DNA from: Williamsia soli
Lineage (GTDB): Bacteria > Actinomycetota > Actinomycetes > Mycobacteriales > Mycobacteriaceae
Direction: 5' to 3'
Assembly (NCBI RefSeq): GCF_017377795.1
Contig: NZ_JAFRDR010000001.1
Coordinates: forward strand, 186,001 to 250,000
Length of the DNA stretch: 64,000 bases
Every line of letters begins with the position of its first letter. Within the stretch, counting starts at the first letter, position 1. The notes under the pieces were generated by a model that was given only the letters and a program-made list of their open reading frames with translations, did no database searches and was not told the origin of the DNA. The translations under genes and the position numbers were made by a program. Below are positions 33,550 to 40,566 of the stretch, one piece after another.

Positions 33550-34221
33550 TTACGCGGCCGGAGGCGTCAGCACCGTGTCGATGAGGTAGACGGTTGCGTT
33601 GGCGGTTTTCACACCGCCACAGACCACAGAGGCATCCTGAACCTTGAGGGTGTCGACCGGACCGGCGACGGTCACGGTGCCGCCTTCGACGGTCGCGTGG
33701 TCGCCGATGACCTGCTCAGGGGTGAGCTGGCCGGGGACAACGTGGTAGGTCAGGATCTTGGTCAGGGTTGCGCTGTCGGTCTTGAGGGACTCGACGGTCG
33801 CCGGGGGCAGCTTGGCGAAGGCGTCATCGGTCGGGGCGAAGACGGTGAACTCGCCGCCGTTCAGGGTGTCCACCAGGTTGACATCGGGGTTGAGCTGGCC
33901 GGATACGGCCTGCGTCAGGGTCTTGAGCATCGGGTTGTTGCTCGCGGCGGTGGCAACCGGATCGGCAGCCATTCCGTCAACCGATCCTGCGCCGGTGGGG
34001 TTTGCCTCGGCGTATGCCGCACAACCGGGTCCGACCAGGGTGGCGGGCTCCATCGAAGTGCTTGAATCCGAGGACATCTCGGAAGAAGTCATGGGTGCCG
34101 ACGTCGCGGCACTGGACGAAGAGGAGTCGGAACTGTCGTCCGAACAACCTGCCACGAGGCCGATTGCCAAGCCAACGCTCGCCACTGTTACTGCGACGCG
34201 CTGAATTCGTTTGAGAGCCAT
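33550..34221 (-). CDS. MPT83-like fasciclin-domain lipoprotein
   Basis: The 223 aa protein closely follows M. tuberculosis MPT83/MPT70: lipobox V-A-G-C with Cys26, a Ser/Thr-rich linker, then [14 protein letters not shown] and a fasciclin (FAS1) domain with [11 protein letters not shown] and [10 protein letters not shown], ending in [11 protein letters not shown]. It should be a surface lipoprotein with a role in adhesion or cell-envelope function; the exact role is unknown even in mycobacteria. A SigK-type promoter lies 109-135 bases upstream, and SigK is encoded nearby. Confidence 0.93.
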
Positions 34222-34329
34222 GTTCGCTGTCCTATCGATTGCTGTCGGTCTACTGCACGGTGTGGGCGACGCTGCCGTTGCTCGGACTCGAGCTCCGGCT
34301 TCTGCCGATCACTTGGTCGATCACTGCAG

Positions 34330-34356
34330 GTTCGGAGCTGTGCGCAGAGCGGATGG
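34330..34356 (-). promoter_or_regulatory. SigK-type promoter for the fasciclin gene
   Basis: Read on the minus strand, the sequence is CCATCC (34351-34356), 15 bases, then CCGAAC (34330-34335). The SigK consensus known from mycobacterial mpt70/mpt83 promoters is CCATCC and CCGAAT, so only the last base differs. It would give a 5' untranslated region of about 100 bases. Confidence 0.65.
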
Positions 34357-34392
34357 GTATGGATCGAAAAGAATTTTTCCGAGTTCGGAGAA

Positions 34393-34419
34393 CCATCCGG
34401 AATGCCGACGACTCCGAAT
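34393..34419 (+). promoter_or_regulatory. SigK-type promoter for the molybdoenzyme-sigK-rskA operon
   Basis: CCATCC at 34393-34398 and CCGAAT at 34414-34419 are separated by exactly 15 bases, a perfect match to the mycobacterial SigK promoter. The gene start is 63 bases downstream. Since sigK is in this operon, the promoter would make SigK self-amplifying. Confidence 0.75.
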
Positions 34420-34482
34420 CCCCTTCGTTATCAACACTTGCCAGTGCGTTACCCAATCGAGATCTTCTGAAGGGCTGAGGAA

Positions 34483-36084
34483 ATGCGAACAGCAGCGACG
34501 GCACGCAACGGGCTCGCGGGCCTGATTGCAGTGGGTGCCGGGCTCGCTGCCGGTGAGGTCACGGCAGCAGCCGTCTCGTCCTATGCCTCGCCGTTCTATG
34601 CAGTGGGTTCTTTCTTGGTGGATCGGGCGCCGGCTCCCGTGCGTGAGTTCGCCATCGACACGTTCGGCACGAATGACAAGCCGGTTCTGTTGTGGGGCAT
34701 AGCTATTGCCGTAGTCGTGCTCGCAATCATCGCCGGCATCGCCGAACGCCGCACCGTACCGATCGGTTCTGCGTTGATAGTGGCGTTCGGGGCATTCGGG
34801 GTCCTGGCTGCGCTTCATCGACCGACGTCTGACATGTGGTATGCCGCACCGTCATTGGTTGCCGCGGTGGTGGGCATTCTCGTGCTTCGCGGTTTGCGTG
34901 GCTTCTTGTGGAGCGGTTCTTCGCCGGGTGGACGGATGAGGGGTTCGGCTACCCGGCAACAGACCGGTCCGAACGGCGGCGCGGCGGTGGAGAAGCCGCA
35001 GTCCGATGGCAACCGCGATCTGTCGAGAAGGCAGTTCGGTGTCGCGGCGGGTGTGATCGCGGCCGTCTCGGTGGCCGGAGCATTCATCGGGAGGCAGGTG
35101 TCGACGATGGGCGATGTCGTGGCCGACCGGAAGCGGGTCCGGCTGCCGCGGCCGAGCCGGGCGGCGGCACCGATCCCCGCGGGTACCGACGTCGAGATCG
35201 AGGGCATAACGCCCTTCGTGACGAACAACGCCGACTTCTATCGCATCGACACCGCACTCCAGGTGCCGAAGTTGACGACAGGCGAGTGGAAACTTCGGAT
35301 CCACGGAATGGTCGACAACGAGATCACCCTCGATTGGGACGACCTGATGGACATGCAGGCCGAGGAGAAGATCATCACACTCACCTGTGTCTCGAATGAG
35401 GTGGGTGGAAACCTGGCAGGCACCGCCCGCTGGATCGGCTACCCGATGAAGACGATCCTCGAGCGCGCCGGCGTACAGGACGACGCCGACATGCTCTTCT
35501 CCACCAGCGTCGACGGCTGGACCTCAGGCACTCCGCTCGACGACGTCACCGACGGCCGCGACGCAATGCTCGTCATCGGCATGAACGGTGAACCGCTACC
35601 ACTCGAGCACGGGTATCCCGTGCGGCAGGTGGTTCCGGGCCTGTACGGATACGTCTCGGCCTGCAAGTGGGTGGTCGACTGGGAGATCACCAGGTTCGAC
35701 AAGGCCGAGGCCTACTGGACAAAGCGGAACTGGGGCGTGAAGGGGCCGATCAAGACAGCATCCCGGATCGACCGGCCCGAGGGACTCTCCAGGCATCCCG
35801 TCGGGGATGTGGTCATCGCGGGAACCGCATGGGCGCAGCACCGCGGTATCGCCAAGGTCGAGGTGCGCGTAGACAAGGGGCCGTGGAACACCGCGACCCT
35901 TGCTCCCGAGTACACGAATGACACCTGGCGGCAATGGTTCTGGACCTGGCCCGCAACGGCAGGTCAACACACTGTCTATTGTCGCGCCACCGATGTGACG
36001 GGGGCGGTGCAACCCGAGCAGAGGGTCGCTCCGATTCCCGATGGGGCGACCGGCTGGCACAACCGAGTGTTCCGGATTGAGTAG
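34483..36084 (+). CDS. Membrane-anchored sulfite-oxidase-family molybdenum enzyme
   Basis: The 533 aa protein has about four transmembrane helices in residues 8-140, a hydrophilic linker, a twin-arginine-like motif S-R-R-Q-F-G at 181-186 leading into a fifth helix (187-205), and then a SUOX-type molybdopterin domain with the Mo-ligand Cys302 (T-C-V-S-N-E) and a C-terminal dimerisation (Mo-co_dimer) domain. The enzymatic domain should lie outside the membrane; the internal Tat motif suggests Sec inserts the first helices and Tat exports the cofactor-loaded part. The substrate is unknown (a sulfur or nitrogen oxide is typical). It is first in an operon with sigK, 8 bases downstream. Confidence 0.9.
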   Translation: MRTAATARNGLAGLIAVGAGLAAGEVTAAAVSSYASPFYAVGSFLVDRAPAPVREFAIDTFGTNDKPVLLWGIAIAVVVLAIIAGIAERRTVPIGSALIVAFGAFGVLAALHRPTSDMWYAAPSLVAAVVGILVLRGLRGFLWSGSSPGGRMRGSATRQQTGPNGGAAVEKPQSDGNRDLSRRQFGVAAGVIAAVSVAGAFIGRQVSTMGDVVADRKRVRLPRPSRAAAPIPAGTDVEIEGITPFVTNNADFYRIDTALQVPKLTTGEWKLRIHGMVDNEITLDWDDLMDMQAEEKIITLTCVSNEVGGNLAGTARWIGYPMKTILERAGVQDDADMLFSTSVDGWTSGTPLDDVTDGRDAMLVIGMNGEPLPLEHGYPVRQVVPGLYGYVSACKWVVDWEITRFDKAEAYWTKRNWGVKGPIKTASRIDRPEGLSRHPVGDVVIAGTAWAQHRGIAKVEVRVDKGPWNTATLAPEYTNDTWRQWFWTWPATAGQHTVYCRATDVTGAVQPEQRVAPIPDGATGWHNRVFRIE

Positions 36085-36092
36085 GTGTTCTG

Positions 36093-36692
36093 ATGACTAT
36101 CGCTAGTGTTATGGATGTGACCGACCGAATCCCCGAAGCTCAGGTGGATCTGACTGATCTGCTGATCAGGACGGCCGGCCATGATCGACAGGCCTTTGCT
36201 GAGTTGTATGACGCGACGGGCGCCCGGGTATTCGGGCTCATCCTTCGCGTACTACGCGATCGTGGTTACGCCGAAGAGACACTGCAAGAGGTATATCTGC
36301 AGATCTGGCAGAAGGCGGGCGGGTTCGACCCGTCGGCCGGTTCAGCGCTCAGCTGGATGCTGACCATCGCCCACCGCCGTGCCGTGGACCGGGTACGGAG
36401 TGAAGAGGCCGCCGGCAAGCGCTCGAACGACTACTCGGTATCCAACTTCGAGGCGCCGGGCGACACTGTCGCCGACTCGGTGATCGCCGAAGAGGAACGC
36501 TCGGACGTGATGTTATGCCTGGGCAGCCTCACCGCCACCCAGCGTCAGAGCATCGAGTTGTCTTACTATGGAGGCCTGACCTACCGGCAGGTCGCGGAGC
36601 GTTTGGACGCCGCCCTACCGACGATCAAGTCCCGTATCCGCGACGGCCTCCGCCGCCTCAAGACTTGCTTGGAGGCGAACCCCCATGGCTGA
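36093..36692 (+). CDS. sigK: ECF RNA polymerase sigma factor SigK
   Basis: The 199 aa protein has ECF regions 2 (F-A-E-L-Y-D-A-T-G-A-R-V-F-G-L through W-M-L-T-I-A-H-R-R-A-V-D-R) and 4 (L-T-A-T-Q-R-Q-S-I-E-L-S-Y-Y-G-G-L-T-Y-R-Q-V-A). Cys142 and Cys192 are 50 residues apart, the same spacing as Cys133 and Cys183 of M. tuberculosis SigK, whose disulfide controls release from RskA. The rskA gene overlaps it by 8 bases, and the fasciclin gene and this operon both carry SigK-type promoters, so the identification is firm. ATG 36093 is used; ATG at 36111 is an alternative. Confidence 0.93.
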   Translation: MTIASVMDVTDRIPEAQVDLTDLLIRTAGHDRQAFAELYDATGARVFGLILRVLRDRGYAEETLQEVYLQIWQKAGGFDPSAGSALSWMLTIAHRRAVDRVRSEEAAGKRSNDYSVSNFEAPGDTVADSVIAEEERSDVMLCLGSLTATQRQSIELSYYGGLTYRQVAERLDAALPTIKSRIRDGLRRLKTCLEANPHG

Positions 36693-37476
36693 ACACAGCT
36701 GGATCGATGAGCACATCGAGCTCTATGCGGTGGGTGCGCTCGACGACACCGAGATCGACCGAATCGAGGTCGAGATCGCCCGGGAGACGGTGGCCGAGCA
36801 GCGCAGGTACCGGCACGAGGTGTCCCGTACCCGTGAGGCGCTGGCGAAGATGACCATCGAGGTCGCGACGCCGCCACCCCCACGGATCCGAGAGCAGTTG
36901 CTCGCCAGCCTGTCGTCGCAGCCGCTGGATCCGCCGGATTTTGACCGGTCCACCGACGGCGTGGACCCAGGCAAGGCCGTCAGCGCATCGAACAATGTCA
37001 TCGACCTTGCTGCCCGTCGTCGTCGTATCAGCCTGGCCGTCGGCTCGGTCGCAGCTGCCCTCATGCTCGTCATCGGAGGGGTGCTCGTCGGCAGGGTGAC
37101 CGCCCCGGACACGGGCGCTCCTGTGGCCAGCGAGCTGGAGCAGGACACGAGCAAGGTGCTCAGCGCACCCGATATGCAGCTACGACAGGATGCGGTCGGC
37201 GGCGGAAATGTCACTGTCGCGGCGTCACGCGAAGCGAACACTGCGGTGGTGTTCGCCGACGGTCTACCGCCGACCCCGACTGGCCAGACGTACCAGATGT
37301 GGCTGCTCGGTGACTCGCACGATCCGACGTCGGTAGGCCTGATGCAGGGCGACCCCGGGCGTCAGGTGATCGCTCTCGATGATCTGACGGGCTCCGACAA
37401 GCTGGGCATCACCATCGAACCCGATGGGGGATCTCCTCAGCCGACCGGCGAAGTGATCACGGCGGTCCAGTTCTAG
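36685..37476 (+). CDS. rskA: Anti-sigma-K factor RskA
   Basis: This 263 aa protein has the RskA layout: an N-terminal cytoplasmic anti-sigma domain (residues 5-75, W-I-D-E-H-I-E-L-Y-A-V-G-A-L-D) without a zinc HxxxCxxC motif, one transmembrane helix at about 115-136, and an extracytoplasmic C-terminal domain with T-Y-Q-M-W-L-L-G. It holds SigK inactive at the membrane and in mycobacteria is cleaved in regulated intramembrane proteolysis by Rip1. The start lies inside the end of sigK (8-base overlap), so the two are made in step. Confidence 0.93.
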   Translation: MAEHSWIDEHIELYAVGALDDTEIDRIEVEIARETVAEQRRYRHEVSRTREALAKMTIEVATPPPPRIREQLLASLSSQPLDPPDFDRSTDGVDPGKAVSASNNVIDLAARRRRISLAVGSVAAALMLVIGGVLVGRVTAPDTGAPVASELEQDTSKVLSAPDMQLRQDAVGGGNVTVAASREANTAVVFADGLPPTPTGQTYQMWLLGDSHDPTSVGLMQGDPGRQVIALDDLTGSDKLGITIEPDGGSPQPTGEVITAVQF

Positions 37477-37605: not shown

Positions 37606-37638
37606 TGATGTGGCGCACGCGTGTCGTGCGCCACATCA
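37606..37638 (+). other. Perfect 14-base stem-loop in the rskA-pntAa gap
   Basis: Arms 37606-37619 and 37625-37638 are exact complements around a 5-base loop. A -10-like TATGTT lies at 37591-37596, so this hairpin would be near the 5' end of the transhydrogenase transcript; alternatively it ends the rskA message. It is followed by CTATTTAGG rather than a T-run. Confidence 0.5.
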
Positions 37639-37648
37639 GGCTATTTAG

Positions 37649-37684
37649 GGGTGGGCGCCAGAGCACACGTTCGGTTGCCCACCC
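37649..37684 (+). other. Second stem-loop in the pntAa leader
   Basis: GGGTGGGC (37649-37656) and GCCCACCC (37677-37684) are exact complements with a 20-base loop. The right arm is 17 bases before the GAGGGAG ribosome-binding site of pntAa at 37695-37701 or so, so folding could affect translation. Confidence 0.4.
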
Positions 37685-37707
37685 ATACCCATGACGAGGG
37701 AGCTTGT

Positions 37708-38796
37708 ATGAGTGTGGGTGTCGTGCGTGAGACGACGGCTGGGGAGAATCGGGTGGCGTTGGTCCCGAAGGTCGTCGCGACGCTGGTGAACAAGGGTGTG
37801 CCGGTGGTGGTGGAGTCGGGTGCAGGTGAGGCTGCCTTGATTCCGGATCAGTTGTATGTCGATGCTGGTGCGTCGATTGGTGATGGGTGGTCGGCTGATG
37901 TGGTGGTGAAGGTCGATGCCCCGACTGATGCCGAGATCGGGAAGTTGTCGTCGGGTTCGTCGTTGATCGGGTTCTTGGCTCCGCGCAATGATGAGAATCA
38001 GATCGGTGCGTTGAAGGCTGCCGGTGTGCAGGCGTTCGCGGTCGAGGCCATCCCGCGGATCTCTCGTGCCCAGTCGATGGACGCTTTGTCCTCGCAGGGC
38101 AACGTCTCGGGCTACAAGGCGGTGATCTTGGCGGCGGAGAAGTCGACGCGCTTTTTCCCGATGCTGACCACCGCGGCCGGGACGGTGAAGCCGGCGACGG
38201 TGCTGGTCCTGGGTGTGGGTGTGGCGGGTTTGCAGGCGCTGGCCACGGCCAAGCGGCTCGGTGCCCGCACCACGGGGTACGACGTGCGCCCGGAGGTGGC
38301 CGAGCAGGTCAAGTCCGTGGGCGGGCAGTGGCTCGATCTGGGGATCGACGCTGCCGGTGAAGGCGGGTATGCCCGTGAGTTGACCGATGAGGAGCGCGCG
38401 AAGCAGCAGCAGGCCCTTGAGGATGCGATCAAGAGTTTCGATGTGGTGATCACGACCGCGTTGGTGCCGGGTCGTCCGGCGCCGCGGTTGGTGACCGCGG
38501 CCGCGGTCGAAGGTATGAAGCCGGGCAGTGTGGTGGTGGATCTGGCTGGTGAGACCGGCGGCAACTGTGAGCTGACCGAGCCCGGTGAGAATGTGATCAA
38601 GCACGACGTGCTGATCTGCAGCCCGCTGAATCTGCCCGCGGGTATGCCTGAGCATGCCAGCGAGTTGTATGCGAAGAACATTCTGGCGCTGATCGAACTC
38701 GCGCTCGATGATGACGGTAATTTCGCGCCGGACTTTTCTGACGAGGTGTTGGCCGCGGCGTGTGTGACGCGCGAAACCGAGAAGGCAGGTGCCTGA
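37708..38796 (+). CDS. pntAa: NAD(P) transhydrogenase subunit alpha 1
   Basis: The 362 aa protein is domain I of proton-translocating transhydrogenase: it begins V-G-V-V-R-E-T-T-A-G-E-N-R-V-A-L-V-P-K and has the NAD-binding Rossmann motif G-V-G-V-A-G-L-Q-A near residue 173. It binds NADH/NAD and passes hydride to NADP in PntB. ATG 37708 has GAGGGAG upstream. The soluble domain is split from the membrane part, giving the three-subunit form (PntAa, Ab, B) seen in mycobacteria and Rhodospirillum. Codon use is richer in TTG, GGT and GAT than in flanking genes. Confidence 0.94.
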   Translation: MSVGVVRETTAGENRVALVPKVVATLVNKGVPVVVESGAGEAALIPDQLYVDAGASIGDGWSADVVVKVDAPTDAEIGKLSSGSSLIGFLAPRNDENQIGALKAAGVQAFAVEAIPRISRAQSMDALSSQGNVSGYKAVILAAEKSTRFFPMLTTAAGTVKPATVLVLGVGVAGLQALATAKRLGARTTGYDVRPEVAEQVKSVGGQWLDLGIDAAGEGGYARELTDEERAKQQQALEDAIKSFDVVITTALVPGRPAPRLVTAAAVEGMKPGSVVVDLAGETGGNCELTEPGENVIKHDVLICSPLNLPAGMPEHASELYAKNILALIELALDDDGNFAPDFSDEVLAAACVTRETEKAGA

Positions 38797-38797
38797 G

Positions 38798-39127
38798 ATG
38801 TATACGGGTTTACTCGCGAATATCGCGATCCTGGTGTTGGCGGGCTTTGTCGGCTTCGCTGTCATTTCCAAGGTGCCCAACACCTTGCACACGCCGTTGA
38901 TGTCGGGGACGAACGCCATTCACGGGATCGTGGTGCTCGGTGCGTTGATCGTGTTGGGCCGGTTGCCTGATGATGCGCCGTGGGGTGTGCGGATCATCGC
39001 GTTCGTCGCGTTGATCTTCGGAACGTTGAATGTGGTGGGTGGGTTCTTGGTGACCGACCGGATGTTGGGCATGTTCAAGAGCAAGAAGGCCCCTGTGGCG
39101 GCGCCGGAGCAGGGAGCTGACAAGTGA
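38798..39127 (+). CDS. pntAb: NAD(P) transhydrogenase subunit alpha 2 (membrane)
   Basis: This 109 aa protein holds three or four hydrophobic helices with V-P-N-T-L-H-T-P-L-M-S-G-T-N-A-I-H-G-I-V, the conserved membrane-domain segment of PntA. It forms part of the proton channel with PntB. ATG 38798 is 1 base after the pntAa stop. Confidence 0.93.
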   Translation: MYTGLLANIAILVLAGFVGFAVISKVPNTLHTPLMSGTNAIHGIVVLGALIVLGRLPDDAPWGVRIIAFVALIFGTLNVVGGFLVTDRMLGMFKSKKAPVAAPEQGADK

Positions 39128-40566
39128 ACAATCTGGTCAATATTTTTTATATTGTTGCGTTTTCGATGTTCATCCTCGGTTTGTCGGGGCTGACTGGTCC
39201 GAAGACCGCGGTGCGTGGCAACTGGATCGCCGCGACCGGTATGGGTATCGCCGTGATCGCGACGTTGATCGAGATCCGCGACACCTATGCCATCAACTGG
39301 ATTTTGATCGTGGCTGGGTTGGCGATCGGTGTGATCTTGGGTGTGCCGCCGGCCAAGCGGACGAAGATGACGGCGATGCCGCAGTTGGTGGCGTTGTTCA
39401 ACGGTGTCGGTGGCGGCACGGTGGCGTTGATCGCGTGGTCGGAGTTCATCGAGACGGCAGGTTTTTCGGAGTTCAAGCACGGTGAGTCCCCGACCGTTCA
39501 CATCGTGATCGGGTCGCTGTTCGCGGCGATCATCGGTTCGGTGTCGTTCTGGGGGTCGCTGATCGCGTTCCTGAAACTGCAGGAGTTGCTGAACAAGAAT
39601 GTGGAGAAGGCGTTCGTGAAGAACGCCAAGATCTTCCAGCTCGCCAACATCGTGTTGTTGGTCATCGCGCTGGCGGCGTGTGTGTTCATCGGGGTCAACG
39701 CCACCCCGGGTGAAGGCTCGAGCCAGTGGTGGATCGTGCTGGTACTCGTCGCCGCCGCGGTCATGGGGTTGTTCGTGGTGCTGCCGATCGGCGGCGCCGA
39801 CATGCCTGTGGTCATCTCGCTGCTCAACGCATTGACCGGTTTGTCGGCCGCGGCGGCGGGTTTGGCGCTGAACAACACGGCGATGATCGTGGCCGGCATG
39901 ATCGTCGGCGCCTCGGGCAGCATTTTGACGAACCTGATGGCTACCGCGATGAACCGGTCCATCCCGGCGATCGTGTTCGGGTCCTTCGGTGGCGGCGGCG
40001 GCGCGGCTGCAGCCGGTCCTGCCGGCGAGCAGGGGACGGTCAAGGCCACCAGCGCTGCCGATGCGGCGATTCAGATGGCGTACGCCTCCCAGGTGATCGT
40101 GGTTCCCGGGTACGGACTCGCGGTTGCCCAGGCGCAGCACGCGGTCAAGGACATGGCGAGCATTCTGGAGGAGAAGGGTGTGGAGGTGAAGTATGCCATC
40201 CACCCCGTTGCCGGCCGGATGCCCGGACACATGAACGTCCTTCTCGCCGAGGCTGATGTGGAGTACGACGCGATGAAGGAGATGGACGACATCAACGGTG
40301 AGTTCTCCCGCACCGATGTCACCCTGGTCATCGGGGCCAACGACGTCACCAACCCCGCCGCCCGCAACGATCCGTCGTCCCCGATTCACGGGATGCCGAT
40401 CTTGAACGTCGACCAGTCCCGCTCGGTCATCGTCCTCAAACGCGGCATGGCCTCGGGCTACGCCGGCATCGACAACCCACTGTTCACCGCACCAGGAACC
40501 TCGATGCTCTTCGGCGACGCCAAAAAATCCGTCGGCCTGGTCATCGAAGAACTCAAAGCGCTGTAA
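39124..40566 (+). CDS. pntB: NAD(P) transhydrogenase subunit beta
   Basis: The 480 aa protein has about nine N-terminal helices (residues 1-270) and the C-terminal NADP-binding domain III with G-Y-G-L-A-V-A-Q-A-Q, H-P-V-A-G-R-M-P-G-H-M-N-V and I-G-A-N-D-V-T-N-P. It couples inward proton flow to NADPH formation. The GTG start overlaps the pntAb stop by 4 bases. Like pntAa, it uses more T-ending codons than its surroundings. Confidence 0.94.
   Translation: MNNLVNIFYIVAFSMFILGLSGLTGPKTAVRGNWIAATGMGIAVIATLIEIRDTYAINWILIVAGLAIGVILGVPPAKRTKMTAMPQLVALFNGVGGGTVALIAWSEFIETAGFSEFKHGESPTVHIVIGSLFAAIIGSVSFWGSLIAFLKLQELLNKNVEKAFVKNAKIFQLANIVLLVIALAACVFIGVNATPGEGSSQWWIVLVLVAAAVMGLFVVLPIGGADMPVVISLLNALTGLSAAAAGLALNNTAMIVAGMIVGASGSILTNLMATAMNRSIPAIVFGSFGGGGGAAAAGPAGEQGTVKATSAADAAIQMAYASQVIVVPGYGLAVAQAQHAVKDMASILEEKGVEVKYAIHPVAGRMPGHMNVLLAEADVEYDAMKEMDDINGEFSRTDVTLVIGANDVTNPAARNDPSSPIHGMPILNVDQSRSVIVLKRGMASGYAGIDNPLFTAPGTSMLFGDAKKSVGLVIEELKAL

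Follow-up and report, generated by a model that had tools for sequence, protein, structure and literature searches.

A 64,000-nucleotide stretch of the Williamsia soli genome (the window; contig NZ_JAFRDR010000001.1, positions 186,001 to 250,000, from an assembly of 6.07 Mb in 25 contigs) carries a gene for an MPT70/MPT83-type fasciclin lipoprotein that diverges from a membrane molybdoenzyme gene, which in turn heads sigK and rskA (Table 1). This arrangement is confirmed, and all four genes, including the overlap of sigK with rskA, lie where a first-pass annotation of the DNA had placed them. The module is real and well conserved, and its core is already known: the promoters and the linkage proposed in the annotation stand, but its interpretation was less new than it implied, since the literature already describes an mpt83-sigK-rskA cassette whose SigK site is conserved (PMC7509140, citing Veyrier 2008). 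We consider it rather probable that the locus encodes a SigK-controlled redox module of the cell envelope, in which the lipoprotein is the dedicated partner of the enzyme and reductive repair is the favoured activity.

Table 1. Genes and predicted promoters of the module, with positions in the window
Feature	Position	Strand	Evidence
Fasciclin lipoprotein, MPT70/MPT83-type, 223 residues	33550-34221	-	PF02469 Fasciclin, E 7e-28
SigK-type promoter CCATCC-N16-CGAA, lipoprotein gene	34331-34356	-	Pattern match, conserved motif
SigK-type promoter CCATCC-N16-CGAA, molybdoenzyme-sigK-rskA operon	34393-34418	+	Pattern match, conserved motif
Membrane molybdoenzyme, 533 residues	34483-36084	+	Oxidored_molyb, E 1.9e-42
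sigK, extracytoplasmic function (ECF) sigma factor, cysteine pair Cys142/Cys192	36093-36692	+	NF007228, 276.4 bits, cut-off 226
rskA, membrane anti-sigma factor, 8-base-pair overlap with sigK	36685-37476	+	RskA_C, E 8.8e-26; NF052375, 156.7 bits, cut-off 100

The lipoprotein is the sole fasciclin match in the genome at an E value of 0.001. Its translation has a lipobox (VAGC) ending at Cys26, and the MPT70 structure 1nyo aligns to residues 62-222 at 220 bits with both cysteines aligned, so that fasciclin domain, MPT70 N-terminal stretch and cysteine pair together place it with MPT70/MPT83. Among 122 aligned sequences Cys67 and Cys201 are invariant and Cys26 is kept in 114. A methionine-rich sacrificial lipoprotein is ruled out, since the methionines of the linker (44, 49 and 57) show no conservation. 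The sigma factor scores above the cut-off of the SigK family model and has SigK 4nqw as its closest solved relative (219 bits, E 4.5e-64); its two cysteines align with those of 4nqw, occur in 91 and 89 of the 93 sequences compared, respectively, and are equivalent to Cys133/Cys183 of M. tuberculosis SigK. The RskA homologue adjoining sigK matches RskA_N just below the cut-off (26.3 versus 27 bits, E 8.8e-6). In relatives RskA restrains SigK and can also activate it, and the cysteine pair matters (PMC7509140).

The 261-base-pair (bp) gap between the divergent genes contains two opposed matches to CCATCC-N15..18-CGAA, where about 0.005 would be expected. The W. soli genome as a whole contains 118 matches on both strands and 13 to the backward pattern, and because the pattern is commoner than its backward control, counting within one genome gives only weak evidence; the case rests on the comparisons between genomes. 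In the DNA upstream of 97 fasciclin, 141 molybdoenzyme and 75 sigK matches of the family, the strict motif (N15-18) precedes 78, 45 and 9 genes, respectively, and the backward pattern, counted on either strand, occurs in 0, 1 and 0. A de novo search for a hexamer, gap and tetramer returned CCATCC-16-CGAA as the top pattern upstream of fasciclin genes (77 of 97, 18 genera) and placed it first upstream of molybdoenzyme genes as well (36 of 141, 12 genera), jointly with its own one-base shift. At a motif score of at least 12, molybdoenzyme genes give 46 hits in 141 with none in the coding and reversed controls; the 88 of 97 for fasciclin genes come from a model trained on these very sites (coding control 7, reversed 0). 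Genus g4 carries a variant, SSVTCC-N16-CGAA, in 10 of 10 cases, with none in the coding control and 1 in 141 for the reversed control over all enzyme genes. Nine further molybdoenzyme matches (eight of g30, one of g29) stand outside these counts and the tree described below, which use 141 of 150; a looser scan found scattered sites in them.

The motif also persists where the genes are apart. Ten of 11 named Rhodococcus molybdoenzyme loci (all except L063) have a strict site on the strand of the gene, and nine of these loci lack both fasciclin and sigK in the flanking 6 kb in either direction, their sites standing 84-139 bp ahead of the match start. Co-regulation is therefore independent of linkage. 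Three Rhodococcoides loci have no strict site. Taken together, these comparisons support the conservation of SigK-type promoters, as predicted from their motif, upstream of both the lipoprotein and the molybdoenzyme gene, in both of the directions that the annotation had claimed. The longer form CCCATCC-N16-CGAA occurs 13 times in the wider W. soli genome (control 0); one site is the lipoprotein's own and three are copies of one sequence. Another three lie 79-107 bp before frames of more than 400 residues (L346, L348 and L349). An overlap with a stop-to-stop frame of at least 100 residues is seen for 12 of the 13 sites, and it discriminates nothing because the lipoprotein's own site has it too. 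The site at G000:C19:406074-406100, 79 bp before a frame that by eye resembles the start of a non-ribosomal peptide synthetase, is a possible SigK target.

Fasciclin, molybdoenzyme and sigK genes occur together in 47 of 151 genomes of the family, spread over 13 genera, and in 45 of these with rskA. Linkage was called by a 6-kb rule on search matches and then by profile searches of 178 regions, which recovered the sigK genes that the match-only count had missed in g20, g24, g11, g17, g31 and part of g22. The conserved co-occurrence that the annotation had anticipated thus extends well beyond close relatives, and the 13-genus spread rules out a linkage limited to them. With F for fasciclin, M for molybdoenzyme, S for sigK and R for rskA, the linked set takes at least seven orders: F< M> S> R> in g1, g18 and g4; R< S< M> F> in g2; S> R> F< M> in g13; R< S< F< M> in g19; S> R> M> F> in g20 and g24; F> S> R> M> in g22; and F< M> R< S< in g10 (some g4 and g13 orders differ between stop-to-stop frames and search matches, and the match order is used). 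Since the genes have been rearranged repeatedly and yet stay together, this points to selection for the set. Three g9 loci pair fasciclin and molybdoenzyme without sigK within 6 kb, and the listed coordinates put sigK 15 to 30 kb off on the same contig. The closest named molybdoenzyme loci are those of Williamsia (10 loci, 98 to 62% identity), all ten of which have the four genes.

A draw of 149 genomes across the phylum gave an enzyme homologue in 66, a fasciclin gene in 30 and both in 28. The two genes are adjacent in nine of these 28, the window's genome included; the other eight pairs belong to seven further families (f3, f5, f12, f13, f17, f26 and f42), and in two of them (L328, L335) sigK comes next. 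Loci outside the family were fetched for apparent enzyme-fasciclin adjacency, together with two genomes of g20 and g24. Some single records deserve mention. Genome G001 holds the four-gene module twice, at sites about 227 kb from each other on a single contig (L139 and L140), and in genus g15 two sigK-rskA pairs flank one fasciclin gene (L201, L203). The record of Kitasatospora arboriphila NRRL B-24581 (L040) contains a Williamsia four-gene module with an enzyme of 84% identity, as in the Williamsia muralis loci, and is probably mislabelled or contaminated. A 5-kb contig recorded as Acidobacteriaceae bacterium isolate BOG_194 (L048), with fasciclin, molybdoenzyme (58% identity) and sigK, is either a mis-binned actinobacterial contig or a case of transfer.

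A quick tree of the enzyme (167 rows, with 25 of 78 named loci and the window's row doubling L130), in which long branches meet, contains a SigK-type branch of 97 rows with a support of 94. At a motif score of at least 10, 48 of the 85 survey rows in this branch have a site (window row included), compared with 1 of the 57 outside. The second Williamsia copies as well as L077 (Mycolicibacterium) and L090 (Mycobacterium lehmannii) fall outside the branch and are without the strict motif; L066 (Mycolicibacterium arenosum) falls inside on a long branch, likewise without the motif. The linked genera g20, g24, g11, g17 and g31 also lie outside, and g31 alone of these has the motif. Genomes with a branch enzyme nearly always have the lipoprotein: a fasciclin gene is found in 79 of 81 family genomes that have a branch enzyme versus 38 of 69 others (Fisher p 1e-10, with no phylogenetic correction). 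This table covers 150 of the 151 genomes and is branch-only, the nine late enzyme matches being counted as not in the branch; an alternative that adds ten fasciclin-linked genomes by hand (89 of 91 versus 28 of 59) is circular and was not used. Within genus g6 the fasciclin gene is present in 5 of 5 genomes with a branch enzyme and in 0 of 5 without; g9, g10 and g13 tend in that direction as well, and the exception in g13 is an 81% complete genome. In the phylum draw 28 of the 30 fasciclin genomes have an enzyme homologue.

Several observations weigh against a dedicated pair under SigK control. The strict motif also lies on the opposite strand of the same upstream regions (36 of 97 for fasciclin, 42 of 141 for molybdoenzyme and 7 of 75 for sigK), strand being no clean control because divergent partner genes give opposite-strand motifs. 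No CCATCC motif was found near the molybdoenzyme gene in g20, g24, g11, g17, g15 and g6, and 37 of the 85 branch rows score below 10, ten of them from g4 with its variant. The alignment of 122 lipoproteins contains no conserved methionine-rich decoy. The within-genus contrast in g8 runs the opposite way, and g15, g18, g21 and g27 are uninformative. In g29, which we call mycobacterial because L077 and L090 nest among its rows, 4 of 10 fetched fasciclin loci (L319-L322) carry CCATCC near the gene start and none of the g29 enzymes included in the tree belongs to the SigK-type branch, which argues that the lipoprotein can act without the molybdoenzyme. Finally, 38 genomes outside the branch have a fasciclin gene, and of the 66 genomes in the phylum draw that have an enzyme homologue (of any subfamily, at E 1e-40) 38 lack one. 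Because looser homologues so often go without fasciclin, the tie is one to the SigK-type branch and the linked lineages and not to the whole enzyme family.

But why would the lipoprotein be a partner of the enzyme and not simply a protein made under the same stress? The last two counts, together with the occurrence of fasciclin-sigK-rskA without a nearby enzyme in several genera and the fact that the published cassette is mpt83-sigK-rskA (PMC7509140), speak for shared regulation only, with the lipoprotein as an independent surface adhesin and the molybdoenzyme in unrelated redox work. We regard this as unlikely, though a serious alternative. It does not readily explain that the branch enzyme is almost never without fasciclin, nor the six enzyme-fasciclin tandems outside the family with no sigK in the short stretches covered, in which a diverged sigK could be missed. 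Moreover, some secreted enzymes combine fasciclin and molybdopterin-oxidoreductase domains within a single polypeptide (PMC1949818), and these fusions give independent support to the pairing. The partnership that the annotation had suggested is hence retained as an inference from branch co-occurrence and domain fusions.

The molybdoenzyme has four N-terminal membrane helices and Arg182-Arg183 before a fifth (helices 2-31, 51-90, 94-111, 118-143 and 176-208 in the predicted model), followed by a sulfite-oxidase-fold molybdenum cofactor (Moco) domain and a dimerisation domain; for the latter the Mo-co_dimer match is just below the cut-off (21.6 versus 22.7 bits) and the predicted model covers the dimerisation domain of sulfite oxidase. 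The structure alignment comprises 83 rows, namely 82 of 104 picked and the window's. The catalytic set of sulfite oxidase consists of a cysteine, two arginines and a tyrosine. Here the cysteine (the Moco ligand Cys302) and one arginine (Arg254) are present and match Cys104 and Arg55 of SorA. The counterpart of SorA Arg109, which we take to be the second substrate arginine, is absent (all 164 sequences have Val, Ile or Leu at position 307), and the position of SorA Tyr236 is occupied by tryptophan (Trp417) in 160 of 164 sequences and by tyrosine in 3. A plain sulfite oxidase is disfavoured on these residues. No column of residues 1-205 has histidine in more than 30% of the 164 rows, and a heme-b relay inside the enzyme is ruled out by this lack of a conserved histidine in the membrane part. 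The annotation's proposal of sulfur/nitrogen oxide chemistry stays a guess, because two of the sulfite oxidase residues are missing and heme ligands are not conserved. The genome contains four Oxidored_molyb matches, that of the window being one; a further one, at G000:C22:112845-113243, carries one in-frame TGA.

What, then, might the enzyme do? That it is an MsrP-type reductase of protein methionine sulfoxide in the envelope, with the lipoprotein as its main substrate or scavenger in the manner of MsrPQ and a methionine-rich peptide under an ECF sigma factor, is a doubtful proposition. The MsrP equivalog model reaches 60.1 bits against a cut-off of 207, the dimerisation domain present here is unaligned in 1xdy, the membrane part offers no conserved heme-binding histidine, and the linker methionines of the lipoprotein vary. 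It is improbable that the enzyme is a sulfite dehydrogenase which sulfite induces by way of SigK, as by an ECF factor in Sinorhizobium, with the lipoprotein merely co-regulated, for although SorA, animal sulfite oxidase, SoxC and SorT are its closest relatives in the PDB, two active-site residues match those of SorA and ECF sigma factors are tied to sulfite oxidation in Sinorhizobium (PMC3511301, PMC6527743), the second arginine and the tyrosine are gone and the SoxC, SorA and SorT models score far below their cut-offs (104.7, 99.7 and 73.9 versus 420, 600 and 570 bits). The module probably acts in reductive repair.

For the SigK-controlled redox module we propose the following course of events. 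An outside signal would lift the restraint of RskA on SigK, by analogy with what is known in relatives, and SigK would then fire the two opposed CCATCC-N16-CGAA promoters, whose activity is predicted from the motif. One would give the MPT83-type lipoprotein; the other would give the molybdoenzyme and, by read-through, SigK and RskA, a positive feedback with its own brake. Such read-through is expected from the anatomy of the operon because only 8 bp separate the molybdoenzyme gene from sigK. In M. tuberculosis SigK controls the expression of its own gene from an upstream promoter (PMC7509140); here the molybdoenzyme promoter would provide the same autoregulation. The enzyme would presumably be inserted by Sec for helices 1-4 and by the twin-arginine translocation (Tat) pathway for helix 5, leaving the Moco domain outside the membrane, and the lipoprotein anchored beside it may present substrate, serve in docking or relay electrons. 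Reductive repair of oxidised envelope groups would be favoured over sulfite oxidation as the direction of the chemistry. As to the signal, PMC7509140 gives it as unknown and names only macrophage contact; an oxidant or light seems likeliest, and an oxidant would fit because light increases the mpt83/mpt70 homologues in M. kansasii (PMC9861118). Directly 3' of rskA, at 37621-40566 of the window and outside the module, lie frames that by eye resemble pntA, divided into two parts, and pntB of a pyridine nucleotide transhydrogenase.

With the SigK-RskA/MPT70-MPT83 regulon, known as a cassette in actinobacteria and Yersinia (PMC7509140), the module shares SigK and its cysteine pair, RskA, an MPT70/83-type protein and the SigK motif before the lipoprotein gene; what sets it apart is that the sigK operon begins with a membrane molybdoenzyme gene, which also has a share in the promoter region. 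Neither 'oxidoreductase' nor 'fasciclin' occurs in the main text of PMC7509140, its figures not covered, and a search of literature on SigK, mpt83/mpt70, RskA, ECF groups, fasciclin and molybdoenzymes, Veyrier 2008, figures and supplements excepted, gave no title, abstract opening or text passage that names a molybdoenzyme as a core member or target of SigK. Subject to the content of Veyrier 2008, what is likely added to the known cassette is a molybdoenzyme that belongs to the SigK-controlled core and is a likely partner of the fasciclin protein. Other systems resemble single aspects of it. The Brucella BcrS-AbcS/bcrXQP (ECF16) and Azospira YedYZ-MrpX systems likewise combine an autoregulated ECF sigma factor and its anti-sigma factor with an exported molybdoenzyme of the sulfite oxidase family and a small partner, but they use another sigma family, the motif (T/C)GTAAC-N17-CGAA, MsrP with a separate MsrQ, and a methionine-rich peptide. 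BcrS of Brucella drives MsrP/MsrQ homologues and such a peptide and is induced by hypochlorous acid (PMC8315932); this ECF16 system is the nearest functional parallel, and we propose that the same logic is realised here with other parts. The architecture of the enzyme is that of the Sec/Tat dual-inserted Moco proteins of the Sco3746 type, with five helices, a twin arginine just before helix 5 and a C-terminal Moco domain, insertion being predicted; Sco3746 and its homologues however have conserved histidines in helices 2-4 and two predicted b hemes (PMC5449189), and here no such histidine is conserved. SorA, SorT, SoxC and animal sulfite oxidase differ from it by having the second arginine and the tyrosine and by lacking the membrane anchor. 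The fused secreted enzymes contain the same two domain types, but in a single chain (PMC1949818).

To our knowledge the function of MPT70/MPT83, which are among the best-known antigens of tubercle bacilli, is not settled, and the linked module hints at their original role. At L319, a g29 locus, two fasciclin genes flank a frame that by eye reads like DipZ, and an mpt83-dipZ-mpt70 arrangement is in print (PMC9861118). It is a tentative idea, and one we hold with less confidence than the module itself, that the ancestral job of SigK across actinobacteria was to run a two-protein envelope machine, a Sec/Tat-anchored molybdoenzyme and its fasciclin lipoprotein partner, acting on a substrate new for the sulfite-oxidase fold, and that most of the sampled mycobacteria lost the enzyme from the regulon and kept MPT70/MPT83, in some of them with two fasciclin genes flanking one for a DipZ-like thiol-redox membrane protein. 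If this is true, MPT70 and MPT83 would be partner subunits that have exchanged one redox enzyme for another. The module also points to a group of the sulfite-oxidase fold with a changed active site, and the conserved enzyme partner in harmless relatives would offer a concrete and safe route to the function of MPT70/MPT83 and to the signal of SigK.

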